A program made the position numbers and the translations under genes. From Acytostelium subglobosum LB1 (Eukaryota > Evosea > Eumycetozoa > Acytosteliales > Acytosteliaceae), in NCBI RefSeq assembly GCF_000787575.1, contig NW_012236531.1, positions 1,387,396-1,451,395 on the forward strand: DNA of 64,000 nt, in the 5' to 3' direction. Below, one piece after another: positions 35,379 through 46,685 of the stretch (positions are counted from its first letter, which is position 1; each line of letters starts with the position of its first letter). The notes beneath the pieces were generated by a model. It ran no database searches and had not been told where the DNA came from. It saw nothing but the letters and a program-made list of their open reading frames with translations.

Positions 35379-36861
35379 ATGTCCAAGAAGAATGTAGTGG
35401 TCTCTATAATTGGTGGAGGTGCGGCTGGTCTAGCATCATGCTACTTTGCCGCGAGGCAGTTGAAAGCGTTAAACATACCTGGTGTCAACATAAGGATTGT
35501 AAGTATGATTGAGTTGGATATTGGATGTTGGATGTTGGATGTTGACTAACAATGTAATGATCGTATATAGTTGGAGAGGAAGAGTGAGACTGGCAAGAAG
35601 ATCTTGATGTCTGGCGGGTCGAGATGCAATGGTGAGTGAGCGAGCGAGTTAATGAACGAACGAGATGAGTTGGATGAATGAATGACTAACATAATCAACA
35701 GTACTCCCAAAGGTCGTGGATATAAAGAAGGACTACTTCAGTGAGGACATGAATATATGCAGGAGGATATTGAATAGTTGGAACGTACCAGACTGTCATA
35801 AATGGTTGTCCTCCGAGATTGGACTGCAACTCGCATTGGAGGAAGGCTCGAATAAGTACTTCCCCGAGTCAAACTCGGCAAGGGATGTACGTGATCTACT
35901 GCTCCAAAGATGTCAACAATTAGGAGTCGAGGTCCAGTATGATCGTTGTGTCAACAACATCGTCGCCGACACATCCGAGGACGACTTTGGCGGCTTCACA
36001 ATCACTGGTACGACAGACAAGGACACTCAACAACACTTCAAACTGCGGTCGGATATTGTGGTGCTGGCGAGTGGTGGCCTGTCCTTTCCCGCGGTGGGCA
36101 CAGATGGTCGCGGCTATGGCATCGCCTCACGTCTTGGACATACAGTGCACCCGACCTACGCCGCGCTGACACCACTCACTGGCACACATCCTGGCGGCAT
36201 CAATGACTTGCGTGGAGTCTCTTTGAACGTCGAGCTCAAGTGTGGCAACGCAGTGTCCAATCGATCTGGCATGGTCTTTACACACAAAGGCTTCAGCGGA
36301 CCCTCGGTCCTGGATCTATCACATCACATTGTCCAACCGCTAACTTTGGCTCAACAACAGTCGCAACAACTAGTCGTGCCCAAGTTGATTGTATCATTCG
36401 ATGGCGAGACGCGAGACGTGTGGGCAAGAAGGTTGGCCAACGAGACCACAGAGTATGGCGGACAGAACATGATGGTGGCCAATCGCATCGGTCAGTTCTT
36501 GCCCTCGCGACTCGTCGACGCGCTCCTTGCCGAGTTGGGTGTGTCTGGCACCACCAAGATATGCGAGCTGAAACAGGCGGATAGGAAGGCGTTGGTGGAG
36601 TCGCTGGCCGCCTACCAGCTACAGTGCAGTGGACATGAAGGATATAGAAAGGCTGAGGTCACTGGCGGTGGTGTATCACTGCGAGACATTGATCACCGCA
36701 CTCTGGAGAGCAAGACAGTACCTGGACTATTCATCGCTGGTGAGCTACTTGATGTCTTTGGTCGAATAGGTGGCTTCAACTTCTACTGGGCCTGGACAAC
36801 AGGTCGCGCTGCAGGTCAAGGCGTAGCAGAAAGAATAAAACATGGACGACCTACTCAATGA
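35379..36861 (+). CDS. HI0933/BaiN-like FAD-dependent oxidoreductase
   Basis: Exons 35379..35498, 35571..35631 and 35702..36861, 446 residues. The start is the ATG at 35379, which places the dinucleotide-binding fold at the N-terminus (VVSIIGGGAAGLASCYFAA). Also seen: the family motif ILMSGGSRCN (split over exon 2), VVLASGGLSFPAVGTDGRGY, FTHKGFSGPSVLDLS, and the C-terminal FAD contact PGLFIAGELLDVFGRIGGFNFYWAWTTG. This is the COG2081 flavoprotein family (HI0933, YhiN, BaiN), widespread in bacteria; physiological substrates are mostly unknown. Length is close to bacterial relatives. Three exons show it is a resident nuclear gene, even if the family arrived from bacteria. Introns here carry TGAN-type repeats on the sense strand, unlike most introns in the window. 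Confidence 0.85.
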
Positions 36862-37305
36862 TCATTATGTGAGTATGTGTCGCGACACTCAATCAATCAA
36901 TCATTCAATCAATCAATCAATCAATCAATCAAAGACTCAGCACACCTTGTTCAAGGTTATTACCATCAACCTTAGACTTGCAGGTGTGTCAAAGCCACTT
37001 GGAAGCCACATGATTGATCTTGTCCAAACCCCCTTTGGTCTTTGTCCCTGCCAAGATCGTTGTTACTTTGGTGTGAGGTACTGCAAAGGACCGCTCTGAT
37101 CAAAAAAACGACCACACACAGAAATTTCCAAAAGGTGCGAAAGACAAGGCCCTACCCCCGATCAACGAGGCACATAGGACCACAAAGCATCAGAGAGATA
37201 TTAGTAATCTGTGTGATCATCTTGAGCCACACTAATACATAGAACTCATTCATCATACATACTCATACATACATATACTTAATAAAACATACAGATACAG
37301 AGATT
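36862..37305. promoter_or_regulatory. Spacer with (TCAA)n run upstream of DNase II
   Basis: 444 bp between two plus-strand genes. A (TCAA)n simple repeat lies at about 36888-36933. Poly-A and a GC-richer block follow, then CATA repeats before the DNase II start. No gene seen. Confidence 0.5.
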
Positions 37306-38388
37306 ATGATGATGAAGTTGGTGTTGGTCATATTGATCGTGGCCTTGGCCTCAACACACGCAGCCAACTTGGGTTGTATGAATGAGGATGGCCAGCCAGT
37401 GGACTGGTGGGTCATCTCTAAGCAGCCACCAATCAAGACAGAGCCAGAGAACTCACCAGCACATAATGGAGTGGGCTACTCATATGCTGATGCCACAAGC
37501 CCCGCACTGGTCATGTCCACTCGCTTCCTGAACGAGACCAACGCGCTGTCCTACACTCTTGAGCCACTGTACAAGACTGAGACCAAGTCCAACCCATACC
37601 TCTGGCTAATGTACAATGACCAGCCAACGGGCATATCCGTGCCCAGCTCCTACGCTCACTCCAAGGGCGTGATCGGCTTCTCTGACAGCCAGGGATTCTG
37701 GCTCATCCACAGCGTGCCCCAATTCCCGACCGACCCACACAAGGGCGGCTACGGCTACCCAGAGAGCGGCCACGTCAACGGCCAGTCGTTCCTATGCGTC
37801 ACCTATGGCTCGTCCGAGTTTGACGCCATCGTCCAGACGCTCTACGTCAACAGGCCATACGCCTACAGCTCGCTGGTGCCCACGGGCATGACCCTGCCAC
37901 TCTCCCAACTCGACAGTTTCCTCAGCGGTGGCTACGAGTCGACGGCCACAGGCAGCGCAGCCACCCTCAAGTCCATTGGCGGCCAGGCCCTGTCCGTGTT
38001 CTACAAGAACCTGCAATGGAACAACGATCTGTACGAGGAGCTGGTGCAGCCACGTCTCGACCAGAACATGGTGGTGACATCATGGCGCATTGGCGCCAAC
38101 AGCACCATCATGCCATCATTCTGCAAGCCAGAGTACAAGTACGACAGCGTCAACAGTCTGACGCTGCAGATCAAGGAGCGCGATGGCAACACCGTCTCGT
38201 GGAAGTACACCAAGGATCACAGCAAGTGGGCTGCGTCCATGCCAACCGAGGCGACCAAGTACATCTGCATTGGAGACATCAACCGAATGTACTCACAGTA
38301 CAAGCGTGGTGGAGGCACTGCCTGTCTAGCAATCGACGCACTCTGGCAGTCCTACTACGACACCATCGACACTGTCAGCGGGTGTTAG
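37306..38388 (+). CDS. Deoxyribonuclease II (acid DNase)
   Basis: One exon, 360 residues, with a cleavable signal peptide (MKLVLVILIVALASTHA). DNase II is a lysosomal acid endonuclease that cuts DNA to 3'-phosphate ends without metal ions. Seen: the family start GCMNEDGQPVDWWVISKQP, SYAHSKGVIGF, the first active-site motif HSVPQFP (His near 135), GQSFLCVTYG, and the second motif DHSKWA (His near 305, HxK pattern). Cysteines typical of the family are present (CMNED, FLCVTY, FCKPEY, YICIG, ACLAID). Length is usual. In a bacterivorous amoeba it probably degrades prey DNA in phagolysosomes (inference). High GC at third positions suggests strong expression. Possible polyadenylation signal AATAAA near 38616. 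Confidence 0.93.
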   Translation: MMMKLVLVILIVALASTHAANLGCMNEDGQPVDWWVISKQPPIKTEPENSPAHNGVGYSYADATSPALVMSTRFLNETNALSYTLEPLYKTETKSNPYLWLMYNDQPTGISVPSSYAHSKGVIGFSDSQGFWLIHSVPQFPTDPHKGGYGYPESGHVNGQSFLCVTYGSSEFDAIVQTLYVNRPYAYSSLVPTGMTLPLSQLDSFLSGGYESTATGSAATLKSIGGQALSVFYKNLQWNNDLYEELVQPRLDQNMVVTSWRIGANSTIMPSFCKPEYKYDSVNSLTLQIKERDGNTVSWKYTKDHSKWAASMPTEATKYICIGDINRMYSQYKRGGGTACLAIDALWQSYYDTIDTVSGC

Positions 38389-38422
38389 TTAACTCGCGAG
38401 TTAGTTTCCGAATGATTGAGCC

Positions 38423-38443
38423 TGTGTGTGTGTGTGTGTGTGT
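38423..38443. repeat. (TG)n microsatellite
   Basis: About ten uninterrupted TG units shortly after the DNase II stop codon, in its 3' flank. Confidence 0.9.
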
Positions 38444-39310
38444 CGGGTTGGGGCACCAAGTCAAGTCGACGTGCCAACTCAGGTCTTGCACTCACTCTTC
38501 AATCAAACTATCAATCACAATTCATTGTAATATTTACCATCCATTCATCCATCCCTTCGACTCATTCAATCAATCAAACACAATGTATATCCATATTATA
38601 ACAGACTCATTCAAATAAACACTATCCAGCATCGACATGATTGTTTGTTCTCGAACATGGATGATTCACGCCGGCGATCAATATTAACAATCCATACCAT
38701 TACCATTAAATCATTCAATCCATGGATTGTTGACCTTGCCTAAACTGAAAGATTAAACACTTTTTCGTCCTAACCACACATCAATCATCATCATCATCAG
38801 TCACCAAACCCAATATCGGTGGAACACTTAAGTCCCCGGGTTACACGACTTGTATTTGTCGCTTGATGATAAATCCCACACTACATAACATACAAATTTG
38901 TTGAGGGCTGGCATCACATCCAAGGTATCTGCCTCTCTCCCCCACTAATCCTTGGTTCGATCAAGTGATTAGTAAAGGGCGGAATCGCACCGTCATTTAG
39001 ATGATTCACCACATTCCAGTTCCCTAAACCCAGACCCAGCTCGAATGTGATTGTAGCGCATCGCATGGGTCGTTCAGTACCATCCGCATCACCTGATGGA
39101 TCCCAAGACAGTGAATCGTCGTGAGAACAGTCGATTGTTGTTGTTGTTGTGATGAGTTACACCTCAAATAATAAACAAAAAAAAAAAAGAAAATAGAAAA
39201 AAAACAATGAAGCAGGACGAACTTTTTAACTTTGGCGGGTCCCGCTTGGTTTCGTGCGAAGCCCGTCTTTGTGAGCTGGTGGGGGATGATGATGTGAGTG
39301 AGTGACCCAA

Positions 39311-39353
39311 AAATGTTGATGTCATGCCCGAAAAGCATGTCGCGTCAACATTT
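39311..39353. ncRNA. Candidate structured element: imperfect hairpin
   Basis: Left arm AAATGTTGATGTCATGC pairs with right arm GCATG-TC-GCGTCAACATTT around a 7-base loop CCGAAAA. Outer helix of 9 bp and inner helix of 5 bp are perfect; between them two G-U pairs and one G-C pair leave a two-base bulge. It sits in a locally GC-rich island in otherwise AT-rich spacer. An ACCCAAAA octamer at 39305-39312, matching the DUSE consensus, overlaps its left end, which is closer than usual. Could be a small RNA, a mobile-element inverted repeat or chance; no family recognised. Confidence 0.25.
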
Positions 39354-40952
39354 GTGGGCGTGTGTCGTCAACATATTTCATTTGTTTCATTTACTTTGTT
39401 CCAGACTTACCATCACACTACCACATCCATGGCAGGGTAAGGACACTACAACTGTGGACAAGGTGAGGTGAGTTGAGTCGGCAGTGTGAGAGCGGAGAGA
39501 GATGTCCTGAAGCGATCAAGCAAGCAAGCAAGCAAGCGCAAGCCCACGCGTGTGTCTGTGATGGAGCTGGTACTGGGGACTTGACCTGGACCAGCCAGCC
39601 GACTAGTACCTCCTCCATCATGACCGAACCATCATAAACTAGAAATAGAGCGTTAACATCATCCTACCACAAGCGGATATCCCATCCATCCACCATCACC
39701 AATCCATCTATCTACCTTCATTCATTCCTTCATTCCTTCTCCCTGCTTCCATCTCATTATCATTCATTCAATCATTCAATCATTCAAGTTTAACAACAAC
39801 ACCATCAACTATCCATAACAAGAACATTCACTTGTTGTCCTGTCATTCTACACATTCACATTCAATCATTCAATCATTCACACACTTAACCATATTTATC
39901 TGTTTGGAACTATTCCACGACCAATCTCATAATACTCTTCCATCTATTTATAAATCATTATCTGTCTTTAAATCCAAACAGTTGTAAATTAATTAATTAT
40001 TTATTCATTCATTCATTCATTCATCCAATCAATCAGCCTCAGCCATCAATCAGTCTTAACCTCGGTCCACTCATACACACCACACAACATAAACATTTAA
40101 TTAACTGATTACCCGACCCTGGAACCTTTGTCTCCAAGTCTACCTGAGCAACACAAGCATAATTAACCACTTCTGCATAAGTTGATGTAAGTATTGACAT
40201 CCTCACTTAATCACAATCACTTGATCACTTGTTCTATCATTGGTCAACAATATGCATATAGCATTGCACGTTACCAGCCCTTGTCGCCTGTGCCACATCA
40301 CTTCCAGCCCCACACACGCACCAAGTGAGTGTACACTCGTCGTTTTTTATCAAGTTCAAGGTGCCTTCTCCCACAGACGCGAAGCCCCACCACACTTGAC
40401 CACTTTAGGACAAAAATGGGCCACTGACTCACACTCTGGGCCTGGCTTCCGGATTTTTGTTTTGTTCTTTTTTGATCAAAAAAGATTCATCACGAATCAC
40501 ACACACACACAAACAATCAATCACACAAACATAAGATAAGATGGTGACCCAATACCCGTTACCAAAATACCCCATTATACATACCTTACATTGCACGAAC
40601 CAACATCTTATCCCTTTCTAATTCTTCTTTCCTTTCATTCATTCATTCATTATTGTCACGTCATCCATCCATCTATCAATACTAACTCCAAAGTACCTAT
40701 CTATCACTCATAGACACACACATAGCTTAATCAAACAACTACTACTATTATTGGGTACAAAAGGCCACTTTCCAACCAAGACCCGACCCAACCAACCAAC
40801 CACCCACCCCCCTAACTCCACCAACACCGGCACCATCATCATCATCATCATCATCAGCCAACTCAATCATATCAATCAATCAATTAATTAATTAATTACC
40901 AATACCATTTCCAACAACTATTATATTTATACATTCAAACAATAACATCATA

Positions 40953-42764
40953 ATGTCTCAAACAAACTTCCTGATGCTGCCGCCACCCAACTCAATGCAA
41001 AGGATATTCTCCTTTGACGTGGACAGTCTTCCAAGACTGCCCTCACTACATACATCGCCAGCGACGCCCAAGTTGACTTCATTTTCCGACTTGTTCAGTA
41101 TGCCTCCCACACTGGCCCTGGAACAACAACAGCAGCAGCCAACCTCCCCCAACAAGGCCATCATCAACAGCAGCAACACCAACAGCAATAGCAATACTAG
41201 TCCCCGACCATCATACCATCCCTACAATATCAATAACAAGGCACGCTCATCACCAGAGATGTCGCCCAGGTCGTCCAAGAACTACTGCAGCGCTGCGTCG
41301 GATCAGCAGATCTCCGAGATGACTGCCCATCGCAACTTGTTGGCCCTGATCGACACTGCCTCGTACGAGGACATGAGTGCCTCACGTGACTTTGACGACT
41401 CGTCGGCCGTGACCTCACCCTCTTCTGCCAACATTGCCTCCCCACCATCCTCGCCAATCGTCTCGCCACGCAGTAGCTCTGCCTCGCCCAAGATTGCCTC
41501 GGTATCACATCAACAACAACAACAACAACCTATTTATTTGAACAGCGTCCTCAGTGTAATCACCGAGGACTTCCACAACAACAATCATAACAACCAACAA
41601 CAACAATCTCCAATCCTGTTACATCTACAAATGCAAAGTCGTCCACAGCCCCAGCCACTGCCACAACCTGCCGCTGCTGCCGCCAATGTGCCAGTCCACC
41701 ACGCCCAACCACACGTCCACGTCCATGCCCACGCCCAAGCTCACGCCCACGCCCATGCCCACGCCCAAGCTCACGCCCACGCCCATCACCACGCCAACTC
41801 CAACACCCAACAACAACAACTATCATCATTGCAAGCCAATAGACTACGCGAGGGACACATCACACCACTGGACTGCTTCCAGACCATCTTTTACAACGTC
41901 ATCTATCAGCTGGCCGAGATCATCTCGCAAGTGCGCGAGAATGAGGGCAAGGCCGCGTCCACCACCACGTCCTCGACCCACTACCTGGGCAGCCGCTTCC
42001 CAATCACCACCAGCATTGTCGAGTCCTTCATCGTCGTGTCGCTGTTCATCAACTCGCACTCACTGGATCGCATCTCGGACTACTGGTCCACCGAGCAGGC
42101 CAAGGTCTACCCAGACGTCGGCCAGATCCCTCGCATCCTGTCACGCAACAAGTACTTTGAGATCAAGAGCAGTCTGTCCAGCGTGTTGACACCCAAGCTG
42201 CTCGACCGTCTGCAGCAGCAACTGCAGGTGGACATCACCCGCCATGTGAGCTGCGCCAACCCCGAGCCACCCCAGTCCAGCCGCTTCAAGACCCCCGTCA
42301 AGCATCGCAACTCGACCAAGGAGCTGGCGTCCTTCAACCTGCTGCTCGAGTATGGTCTCTCACATGTGTGCGACCTGTTCAACCAGCAGCGCAACAGCCA
42401 GTCATTCATCCCACTCGTCCAAGTCGTGGAGCTGCTCACCGAGCAGATCTGTCCCGCTGGCACCGAGTTGACCATGGCTGCCAGTGGCCTCGAGTCCTCG
42501 TCTTCATCGTCGTCCAACAGCAGTCCACCAATGTCACCTCAATCACCTTCACAACAACAACTCCAACAACAACAACAACAGTCAACACAACATGTACTGC
42601 TACCTCAGCCAGCCGTGTCAAACGCAGCCGGCACGCCATCTAAAGCCATTAGATGTTTCACATGCAAGGCCACCACTGCCTTGCCTCTTGCCAGGCCCAT
42701 CTTGAAGTGCAGCAAGTGTGCGCTGCACTATCACCGGGAGTGTTTCATTGCTTCCCACGAATAA
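40953..42764 (+). CDS. piggyBac-transposase-derived protein, no evident catalytic core
   Basis: One exon, 603 residues. Order: a Ser/Pro/Gln-rich disordered first 200 residues; poly-Gln; a His-Ala/His-Val dipeptide run near 245-280; then, from about 303, a region matching the piggyBac transposase N-terminal part: ITPLDCFQTIFYNVIYQLAE (like TPLxxFxLFFxDxxxxxI) and IVESFIVVSLFINSHS, DRISDYWSTEQ, IPRILSRNKYFEIKSSL (like IRDYW... MSRNRFxxI). A Gln/Ser spacer and a C-terminal Cys/His cluster follow (IRCFTCKATTAL, ILKCSKCALHYHRECF), like the piggyBac Cys-rich DNA-binding domain. The Asp residues of the DDE core are not seen where expected. No TTAA-flanked terminal inverted repeats were recognised. 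Best explanation: a host gene evolved from a piggyBac transposase, perhaps a DNA-binding regulator. Family call moderate. Confidence 0.55.
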   Translation: MSQTNFLMLPPPNSMQRIFSFDVDSLPRLPSLHTSPATPKLTSFSDLFSMPPTLALEQQQQQPTSPNKAIINSSNTNSNSNTSPRPSYHPYNINNKARSSPEMSPRSSKNYCSAASDQQISEMTAHRNLLALIDTASYEDMSASRDFDDSSAVTSPSSANIASPPSSPIVSPRSSSASPKIASVSHQQQQQQPIYLNSVLSVITEDFHNNNHNNQQQQSPILLHLQMQSRPQPQPLPQPAAAAANVPVHHAQPHVHVHAHAQAHAHAHAHAQAHAHAHHHANSNTQQQQLSSLQANRLREGHITPLDCFQTIFYNVIYQLAEIISQVRENEGKAASTTTSSTHYLGSRFPITTSIVESFIVVSLFINSHSLDRISDYWSTEQAKVYPDVGQIPRILSRNKYFEIKSSLSSVLTPKLLDRLQQQLQVDITRHVSCANPEPPQSSRFKTPVKHRNSTKELASFNLLLEYGLSHVCDLFNQQRNSQSFIPLVQVVELLTEQICPAGTELTMAASGLESSSSSSSNSSPPMSPQSPSQQQLQQQQQQSTQHVLLPQPAVSNAAGTPSKAIRCFTCKATTALPLARPILKCSKCALHYHRECFIASHE

Positions 42765-42919
42765 AAGTCGTCGTAAGCATTAAAAGCTTAGCTAAGCTAC
42801 CTACTACCATCCATTGGTCGAATGTTCTTTGTGTTTTTTGTTTTGTAGTCGTGTTCCAATGAGTGTGGCCGCAGGAAATTGAAAACGGAAACTGGAAGTT
42901 GGAAGTTGGACTTTTATTA

Positions 42920-44246
42920 TTAGAGTGATAATGCACATACAAGGCCAATAAGAAGCAACATGATCAATACATTGTGGCTTGATCGTCCAGTGGCGGATGA
43001 TGAGGTAGTTGTTCCGCCAGTGGTAGTTCCTTGATTCGAAGTGTGGCCGCCAGTAGTGGTAGTGGTAGTCGTGGTGGTAGTTGAGGTGGTAGTGGAGGTG
43101 GTAGCGGGTGTCTTGCATATGTCTGGGATTGGGAGGATATCTGTGAACTTGCACGCTTGGAGATTGACATCACATACACCAATCTGACATTGTGGATTCT
43201 TTGGAACACATTGTCTTGGGAACTTCAGACATCCAAGTCTCTTATCACATAATGATTCCGTGCAGTATTGTTCAGAGCTACAGGTTGCGTTGGTGTATGA
43301 ACATCCCACACCTTTGACGCATGTGCCCACGGTGCATAGGTCGAGGTCAGGACAGACCATATCGGGATGTTGACATCCCAATGCAGCATCGCATGTGTCC
43401 TTTGTGCATGGATTGCCATCATCACATGACCTCATCGTGAATGAGCATTGACCATCATTGCAATGTCCCACACTGCATGCGTTTCCGTTTGAGCAGACAC
43501 TGTCTGTGTCCTTGCAACCAAGAGGGTTGGTCGGGTCGCATGTCTGGCAACCTTTGCACTGTTTGGGAGTGTGAGTGATCGCTCCAGTGACTGGGTTGCA
43601 AGCATCAACAGTGCATGGGTTGTTGTCGTCCACAGTGACATTGGTGTAGACACACTTTCCGGATTGTGCATCGCAGCTGGCCACCATGCACATTGGTGTC
43701 GACTTAGGGTCGCAACAAGTGCACTCGGTACTGTTGGATAATTTGGAGACACATCCAACTCCTGGAACACAAGAGTAGATTGTGCATGGAGCAGGATCGG
43801 CTGGTGCACAGCTCTTGGCAGTGCTCACACATCCCAAGGTCTTGTCGCATGAGTAGTCAGTGCACCACTTGTCGGTCTGTGGACATATTACTGGCGCGGA
43901 CACACAATCTCCATTGTCATTACAAGTGTTCGTGGTGCAGGCGTCTGGGGCCACGCACTTGGGCTTGTAATGGCATCCAAGGGTGCCGTCACAGCCATCG
44001 ATATTTTGGCACTTGACTGGGGGACAGGTCTTGGAGGATACCTTTACACATGCGCCGCCGCTACATCCCCAGTTGAAGCAGATGTCGGCCTCAGTCTGGT
44101 TAGCGCATGTTATAGGTGTGTGGAGGCAGTTAATTGTTAATTTATTCACCCATTCATTTATCGAGTGACGTACATTGATCATCAGCTGAACTGATACATT
44201 GACAAGCAATCAGAAGAAGTATTACTTGTAAGATATATTTATCCAT
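42920..44246 (-). CDS. Cysteine-rich CTDC-repeat surface protein without PA14 domain
   Basis: The cysteine-rich body (42920 to about 44125) is open and clear: repeats of the type C..D.C...LGC, a Thr-rich stalk and a hydrophobic tail (NVLIMLLLIGLVCALSL) that looks like a GPI-attachment signal. It parallels the C-terminal part of the PA14+CTDC gene at 53365-55540. The 5' end is unclear. The ATG at 44246 starts a good signal peptide (MDKYILQVILLLIACQCISS) but in another frame, and a GTACGT donor lies after it with no AG acceptor before the first body motif CLHTPITC. So an unusual intron, a base error or a decayed start are all possible. No PA14/fibro-slime domain is present. Psi-family relatives in Dictyostelium influence prespore differentiation; that role is only inferred by kinship. 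Confidence 0.65.
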
Positions 44247-44249
44247 TAT

Positions 44250-44815
44250 CTAAGTCTAGGGATAAATGATTAAATGGTATGATTGATTGATTGATCAAGA
44301 TACTTCTTCATAGAGGCAAAAGCCTTTCTTATTTCTTCGCGGATGCAGTCCAGAGTTTTCCCTCAAAACAACCAAATCATTATACAAATAAAGAAAGATG
44401 GAACTTCAAATCATTTTGATTGAATCCTAAACGAAAGGGTGTGTGAAAGTTCGTGTTATGGGTGGTGACATGAATCAATTCAATTACTTTTCAATACAGC
44501 TCATGTGACCTAAAGAGCGATTGATTATCACTATCATTCAAGGTACTCTGAAAACATAGACTAGTTGATGAAGTGTATATAGTAGTTCAAGATTGCTCAA
44601 CCTAACTTAGTTAAGATGGGGACCAATCAAGCCACTCGCACACACTCACACATACACACATACTCTCGCTGACTGGTCCATACTTCAATCAATGTATGAT
44701 ATGATGTATGACTTAAGACATCATGTAGCCAGACACGAGCCAACTTTTAACTATTTATACTTAAGTATACCATATCACTTAAGTCACTTCTGAGATCGAT
44801 GGATAGTTAGAAAGA
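44250..44815. promoter_or_regulatory. Divergent promoter region with three ACTTAAG boxes
   Basis: 566 bp between the CTDC gene (-) and the aspartic protease gene (+). ACTTAAG occurs at 44711-44717, 44759-44766 and 44777-44784, all within 105 bp of the protease ATG. The middle copy is the centre of a 14-bp palindrome TATACTTAAGTATA. CACA repeats lie near 44639-44660. No gene seen. Confidence 0.5.
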
Positions 44816-46685
44816 ATGAAAGTTGGATCATTAAGGAAAGTATTGTTGATGTTGTTGGTCTTGGCAATTTCATCATCATTATGGACATTGCACCAGGTCG
44901 ATGCCAAGACCATCTCATTACCAATACGTCCAGTGTATAATATACCTCAAATAGAGTCACATGTGACTTCCAAATCAATTAAACTAATAAATGACAGCGA
45001 GCCTTGTATGTATACTTGCCATCCAATCAATCAAACCAATCATCAAAATTACTGACTCATACCATAACTCTCTACTCTAACAGCCATGTATGCCTCACAG
45101 ATGAAGGGAGACCTAATTGAGATAAGGACAAGTGTTTGGGTAGGAGGTATTGAACAGGAGGTGATAGTGGACACTGGATCAAATGTATTAGTAGTACCTT
45201 CAACTTCATGTTATTCATGCTCTCAGGACAAACCATTTTACAGACCCTCCAAGAACATGGAGTTCATGTCTTGTCAATCAGACCTCTGTCAACTACCAGA
45301 AAACTATTGTCTTCGTACCAACAATCATCCAAATGGAGTATGTGCACTCGAACTTGGATACATGGATGGTACAACATTGTATTGTAAGTCAATCGATCAA
45401 TCAATCAATAACTTGTCCATCTTACTCACATTATTCATCAACTCTTAGCATATTTGTCGAAAGATCAATTTAAGATGTCTTCAGAGATGGATGATATCAC
45501 TCTTAACTTTGGAGCAATCTATAGCCAGACAAAGGGAAAGAAGTTGCTGTATGGTATACTTGGCATGGGTAACTCGGATTGCAAGGATTGTTGGAAGTCG
45601 GCCATTGATGCAGTGTTTGATGAGCATAATATTACAAAGACATTTGGACTCTGGATCGATGAACACTACACAGGAGTGATGACGATTGGTGACCTCAATC
45701 CATTCTACTATTCCAAGTCATTGTCATACACGCCATTGTACTCACTTGGTTCCAGTCACTACAGTATCATGCCAACATATATCTCCATTGGTGGATCAAA
45801 GAAGAATGCATTGACACTGAGCTCTCGAGAGTTTGGCGTGTCTATCCTTGACTCTGGAACTTCATTCACTCTTCTGGCCTCGCCCGCATACGATTCACTC
45901 TACGAACATCTCACCGAGAACTATTGTCACATTGATGGAGTTTGTGACGACAAACTGTTTACTCAACAGTGCATGCAGTACAGTGATGATGAAGTGGGCC
46001 TATTCCCAACGATTGTTATTGGACTAGCTGGAGGTGAGAAGATGGTCGTCGAGCCATCAACATACTTTGTTACACTCTACATTAGAGGACTACGTTATCG
46101 TTGTCTTGGAATTGGTAAATCACCTCTCCAGAGTACTTCAATATTCGGTCTATCATGGTTCAGAAGTAAGATCAATCAACTACGCTCACGTCATCAATTT
46201 CTTACTAACATACATTGATCAATCATACAGAATCATACATTATATTCGATAAAGAGAATAACAAGTTTGGAATTGGCAAGAGGAGGGAGTTGAAGCGTCT
46301 AATCCCAGCTCCACCTGAGGACCCTGATGAGCATACATCATTGAAGAAGGATGTTGTCCAGACTTGCTCACTGAAGGTTCAACATCAAAGGGTTGCCAAC
46401 AACAACACTTTGTACAACAACAACAACTCATGGTCTGCAACAATAACCAATATTGGAGAGGATAGTATTAGTAATATCAGGTTATTGTTCTCAAGTGATA
46501 TTATATCAACGGAGTTGGAGTATGATTATGGACAACATACCTTTAAGAATGGATCATTGAACATTGGACCAGGCGAACATTTTATAATTATGTATAACAA
46601 CAGAGGAGAGTATCCAAATAAGATAGCATTCCCTGACTACCCAGAGTGCAACCTCAAGTTCCCAAGTCACTTTGTCACGCAGTAA
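44816..46685 (+). CDS. Secreted pepsin-family aspartic protease with CBM49-like C-terminal domain
   Basis: Exons 44816..45005, 45084..45383, 45449..46165 and 46231..46685, 553 residues. Seen: a signal peptide (VLLMLLVLAISSSLWTLHQVDA), a short pro-segment, the first active-site motif VDTGSN (Asp near 93) with paired Cys after it (CYSC, CQSDLC), the second motif LDSGTS (Asp near 298), the C-terminal lobe ending SWFRKSYIIFDKENNKFGIG, then an extra domain of about 100 residues (WSATITNIGEDSISNIRLLF, LNIGPGEHFIIMYNNRGEYP) resembling CBM49, a cellulose-binding module common in dictyostelids. A1 proteases cleave proteins in acidic compartments or outside. The tail could target the enzyme to cellulose-containing matrix (inference). 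Both catalytic Asp are present. Polyadenylation-like AATAAA near 46699. Confidence 0.82.

Follow-up and report, generated by a model that had tools for sequence, protein, structure and literature searches.

Known domesticated transposases mostly retain a recognizable catalytic domain, often an inactive one. Within the piggyBac family, the human CSB-PGBD3 fusion is reported as a DNA-binding protein tied to the expression of nearby genes (PMC3459987). The C-terminal cysteine-rich domain (CRD) of T. ni piggyBac is PHD-like and binds DNA, and that of Paramecium Pgm has a C1-like fold and binds histone H3 rather than DNA (PMC8086355). The locus considered here lies in a stretch of 64,000 nucleotides from Acytostelium subglobosum LB1 (contig NW_012236531.1, positions 1,387,396..1,451,395, forward strand), hereafter the window. 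Sequence comparison and structural modeling support descent of a single-exon gene in this window from a piggyBac transposase. In this gene the whole RNase H-like domain looks to be gone, not merely its catalytic Asp residues, and the two halves of the split dimerization and DNA-binding domain (DDBD) look to have been rejoined. The gene, its principal parts and a paralogue elsewhere in the genome are as follows.

40953..42764, + strand: putative piggyBac-derived single-exon host gene without a catalytic core, 603 amino acids (aa), recognized from its open reading frame (ORF), orthologues and paralogue
41862..42245, + strand: probable first half of a piggyBac-type DDBD, residues 304-431, assigned from PF13843, hhalign, helices and VIA
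42246..42281, + strand: short variable linker, residues 432-443, at the site of the piggyBac RNase H-like catalytic domain, from alignment and helices
42282..42455, + strand: proposed second DDBD half, residues 444-501, two helices, RFKTPVKHRNSTKELASFN... to TEQICP, from helices and the range of the VIA match
42588..42761, + strand: putative CRD with His547, C568/C571, C586/C589, H594, C597 and H602, from the Cys/His pattern and a sub-cut-off C1-like Pfam match
L016:1791-3482, - strand: paralogue ORF of 563 aa without the C-terminal Cys/His domain, from genome search

Three relatives of the window protein are available, namely the paralogue, P0002 (a EukProt protein of 466 aa) and P0003 (Cavenderia fasciculata DFA_07390), with cores 63-72% identical to its own. 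The first DDBD half contains TPLDCF (residue 304), ISDYW (374) and LSRNKYFEI (396), the piggyBac motif order already recognized in the initial annotation. PF13843 (DDE_Tnp_1_7; profile length 349, curated cut-off 22.4 bits) places P0002 (23.8 bits) and the paralogue (23.5 bits; core alone 26.3 bits, E 5.6e-6) above its cut-off and the window protein below it (17.8 bits; core alone 20.3 bits, E 0.00037), while the C. fasciculata protein gives no match even at E 10. The matches are restricted to the N-terminal third of the profile, beginning at position 1 and ending at 92 (window), 90 (P0002) and 121 (paralogue). Profile-profile comparison of the four family cores with four piggyBac transposases in hhalign gave a probability of 7 and P of 0.005 for the whole core with the first piggyBac alignment. 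After trimming of one piggyBac sequence and realignment, P fell to 3.4e-5 for the whole core and to 1.6e-5 for the first half (probability 79). VIA comparison places piggyBac at rank 1 by a wide margin. The domesticated piggyBac origin suggested in the initial annotation is thereby supported by a profile match and a structural match, both modest. Given the core identity among the relatives, the E value of the paralogue core and the P value of the first half, the similarity to piggyBac exceeds chance.

Several observations weigh against this descent. They favor an unlikely alternative in which the family consists of helical proteins specific to dictyostelids, bearing a C1/PHD-like finger, unrelated to piggyBac and similar to PF13843 by chance. 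The profile match is weak in the window protein and absent from C. fasciculata, and in an ungapped shuffled-column test the real score of the first half was reached by 76 of 300 shuffles and is not significant. The second half is likewise weak in sequence tests: hhalign did not find it (P 0.15); its ungapped score was reached by 16 of 300 shuffles, the top match falling within the catalytic region; and on the second-half piece of the piggyBac DDBD, where 4 of 300 shuffles reached the score, the match was not in the proposed register. A second structural model yielded 28 VIA rows without a piggyBac chain, a result that excludes nothing, as piggyBac chains were perhaps never compared. Among further searches, neither model matched anything in Foldseek at E <= 0.001, and no piggyBac chain was found when the PDB was queried by sequence with the core and the tail of the window protein and with two family profiles. 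Viral contigs, scanned for piggyBac relatives with which to widen the profile, gave 113 stretches, none of them confirmed. Chance similarity is countered by the convergence of Pfam, hhalign, the VIA ranking and CRD-like ligands at the expected end of the protein.

No counterparts of the catalytic Asp residues were found, in agreement with the initial annotation, and the RNase H-like domain whose Asp triad marks the PF13843 superfamily is lacking from the family. The two conserved blocks are instead separated by 17-30 residues across the four members. Assignment of residues 444-501 as the second DDBD half is supported but not proven, and clean excision of the catalytic domain is therefore also supported but not proven. 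A chimera test weakly favors the assignment. The piggyBac tail alone scores 71.2 bits, or 104.8 bits with its own C-terminal part. With family segments attached it scores 75.5 (window), 75.3 (paralogue), 76.7 (P0002) and 75.7 bits (C. fasciculata), and the alignments extend to profile position 341-347; these four segments are not independent. Fourteen shuffles of the window segment gave 70.2-75.7 bits, one of them beating the real segment and one (74.6 bits) extending to position 339.

The C-terminal Cys/His cluster noted in the initial annotation is present as CxxC...CxxC...HxxCF...SH. The arrangement CxxC, CxxC, x4, HxxC, x4, H is found in three of the four members, the exception being the paralogue ORF, which has no tail. 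A His precedes the first Cys by 20 residues in the window protein, 11 in P0002 and 9-19 in C. fasciculata, which has four. The best Pfam match of the 43-aa window tail is C1_1 (23.6 bits, E 4.5e-5), below its cut-off of 26.5, and PHD scores 16.7 bits against a cut-off of 24, so the tail falls short of curated membership in either finger family; its PDB matches include the PHF1 PHD (E 0.042) and PKC theta C1 (E 0.45). PF13842 matched nowhere in the search and is hence uninformative, leaving the CRD assignment to the ligand pattern. As in the CRDs of Tetrahymena Tpb2 and Paramecium Pgm, two CxxC pairs are followed by three more Cys/His ligands, and a His upstream of the main block is shared with Pgm. 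In this comparison the CRD is nearer the PiggyMac/piggyBat type than the T. ni piggyBac type, although the T. ni CRD also has its spacing past the second CxxC (x4, x2, x4). The genome also contains a piggyBac relic that reads CxxC-x16-CxxC-x4-H-x2-C-x4-H. The fifth main-block ligand is Cys in Pgm and His in the family, and the last spacing is x3 in Pgm and x4 in the family. These partial differences in order and spacing lower confidence both in the CRD assignment and in the explanation favored below.

Copy number and selection are those of a domesticated gene. The 603-aa frame runs from ATG to stop without interruption, consistent with the single exon initially described. A protein search of the 30.7-Mb genome with residues 300-603 gave seven matches, comprising the locus, the paralogue (contig C47, 61% identity, E 1.6e-80) and five at E 0.003 or worse, and a DNA search gave 12, comprising the two loci and ten short matches covering 30-73 query bases. 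The many near-identical copies expected of a live element were thus not found. Between the paralogue cores (196 codons), dN is 0.29, dS 0.95 and omega 0.31 (bootstrap 0.20-0.48, 300 resamples), showing purifying selection, and 81 of 218 columns are invariant among the four family cores. Queries with window region 300-603, P0002 region 196-466 and the four-sequence alignment all converged on three proteins (the window protein itself, P0002 and P0003), so that relatives are present in two other genomes. No further dictyostelid orthologue appeared in these searches, which were limited to shared 5-residue words (7983 and 7988 candidates richest in such words were scored with the window region and the alignment, respectively); because they reach only relatives sharing short exact words, absence from other dictyostelids is not demonstrated. 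Between 38389 and 44200, in line with the initial annotation, no terminal inverted repeat (TIR) pair occurs among the 25 longest of 43 inverted-repeat pairs, all 25 being simple-sequence tracts or short imperfect pairs. Given two diverged loci in place of multiple copies, together with the conservation and the purifying selection, identification of the gene as a transposon copy was rejected.

The explanation that we find rather probable begins with domestication of a piggyBac-family transposase gene in a common ancestor of the window, C. fasciculata and P0002 genomes. The RNase H-like catalytic domain would then have been lost, leaving a short linker in its place, and the two sequence-separate DDBD halves would now form one continuous helical domain. 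The resulting protein would begin with low-complexity sequence in which a few short motifs are conserved, and continue with the DDBD, a linker rich in glutamine and a CRD that binds zinc. It may be nuclear and dimerize via the DDBD, which would hold DNA, while the CRD would hold DNA or histone H3 tails and the N terminus would recruit cofactors. The product would thus be a non-catalytic regulator of transcription or chromatin, with the CRD-less paralogue as a possible partner or competitor. A regulatory role, proposed also in the initial annotation, is the best guess for a non-catalytic protein that combines a DNA-holding domain with a zinc finger of chromatin type. The evidence is evenly poised on the broader claim that this is a new type of dictyostelid DNA- or chromatin-binding protein, made by excision of the catalytic domain, healing of the DDBD and duplication, with one copy then losing its CRD. 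If so, folding and selection of a piggyBac DDBD would be possible without the rest of the transposase, nature would have provided an experiment on what the DDBD and CRD do, and some social amoebae would have gained a lineage-specific regulator.

The same origin could have led instead to transposon silencing, with the empty DDBD and CRD occupying piggyBac ends or forming dead heterodimers, for which the KP repressor of P elements is a precedent. This is improbable, despite piggyBac matches at 15 places in the genome, one of which is the paralogue and some of which are pieces of a single element. Three of the matched loci (L006, L007 and L008; G000 C6, C23 and C54) carry a 399-aa piggyBac-like ORF with identical proteins and 99.6-99.8% DNA identity over 1.85-1.98 kb, which suggests a lineage recently mobile or copied. 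The family core is far diverged from the resident elements; none of their transposases is listed when it serves as a protein query, and only the profile detects the link. Shared dimers or shared end recognition are therefore unlikely, and conservation between species gives no hint of an arms race.

We give somewhat less credence still to a piggyBac-derived architectural partner without DNA sequence specificity, acting alongside another transposase-derived protein. Dictyostelids are not known to have programmed DNA elimination, and no active host partner was identified in this analysis. The model for such a role is the Paramecium PgmL proteins, which have no intact DD(D/E) site, retain the CRD, form complexes with Pgm and are likely architectural (PMC8086355); the defect described there concerns the active site and does not extend to the domain as a whole. 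It is highly improbable that the locus is a transposon copy, decaying or non-autonomous, whose ORF survived by luck. Internal deletions are common among DNA transposons, but this idea is already largely contradicted by the 61% identity of the two loci, the relatives in two other genomes, the omega value and the lack of a TIR pair among the inverted repeats listed.

The N-terminal half of the presumed regulator and its upstream flank contain the remaining features.

40953..41861, + strand: low-complexity N-terminal region, residues 1-303, probably disordered, from sequence and low predicted local distance difference test (pLDDT) scores in P0002
40974..41009, + strand: residues 8-19, MLPPPNSMQRIF, pattern LPxPxSxxxIF, from the family alignment
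41214..41225, + strand: YHPY, residues 88-91, by inspection of four family proteins
41337..41456, + strand: hydrophobic-acidic, then SP-rich stretch (LLALID...FDDSSAVTSP...PPSSP), by eye
41697..41795, + strand: His-Ala repeat, from sequence and the family alignment
38389..40952, no strand: upstream intergenic stretch of 2564 bp, from ORF ends and an Rfam scan

Disorder of residues 1-303 is probable from the predicted model of the orthologue P0002, in which pLDDT is mostly low across the N terminus. The short motifs keep one order among the family proteins. LPxPxSxxxIF is common to the window protein, P0002 and C. fasciculata and is missing from the paralogue. YHPY occurs in all four proteins by inspection, the aligner having set the C. 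fasciculata copy out of register. The acidic and SP-rich stretch, recognizable in all four and least clear in C. fasciculata, is a possible activation or docking region. The His-Ala repeat of the initial annotation is indeed present, and none was seen in the three relatives. Residues 1-97 of P0003 form an N-terminal extension that its relatives do not have and that matches no Pfam family at E 0.01, possibly a mis-joined gene model.

The upstream gap, put at about 2.5 kb in the initial annotation, follows a DNase II gene (PF03265, E 1.6e-97), contains no ATG-initiated ORF longer than 104 aa and is probably a regulatory region. An Rfam scan of 36000-46500 gave zero matches. Downstream, a gene with Dicty_CTDC repeats lies on the opposite strand; these repeats and the C. 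fasciculata match point to a dictyostelid. An aspartyl-protease-like gene is split over two adjoining ORFs (45086-45448 and 45475-46218) that are probably exons.

The initial annotation knew of no such dictyostelid gene, and none was found in titles or abstract starts of the literature on piggyBac domestication, dictyostelids or Amoebozoa and C. fasciculata DFA_07390, in which subscription journals are thinly covered. Among known systems, piggyBac and piggyBat (PF13843; PDB 6X67, 9C0F) share the TPLxxF, DYW, SRNxxF order and, as proposed here, the helical DDBD and the C-terminal zinc-binding CRD. The window gene departs from them in lacking the RNase H-like catalytic domain, the insertion domain and the Asp triad, in having no TIRs among the inverted repeats listed and in its long low-complexity N terminus. 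Tpb2 and Pgm are catalytically active endonucleases, unlike the product proposed here. Paramecium PgmL1-5 are, like it, domesticated piggyBac host proteins without catalysis and with a CRD of Cys/His ligands, but they are described as having lost only the intact active site (PMC8086355) and serve in ciliate DNA elimination. Human PGBD3 and CSB-PGBD3 are likewise domesticated from piggyBac, but there the transposase domain is retained with one catalytic Asp changed, and the core is not excised.
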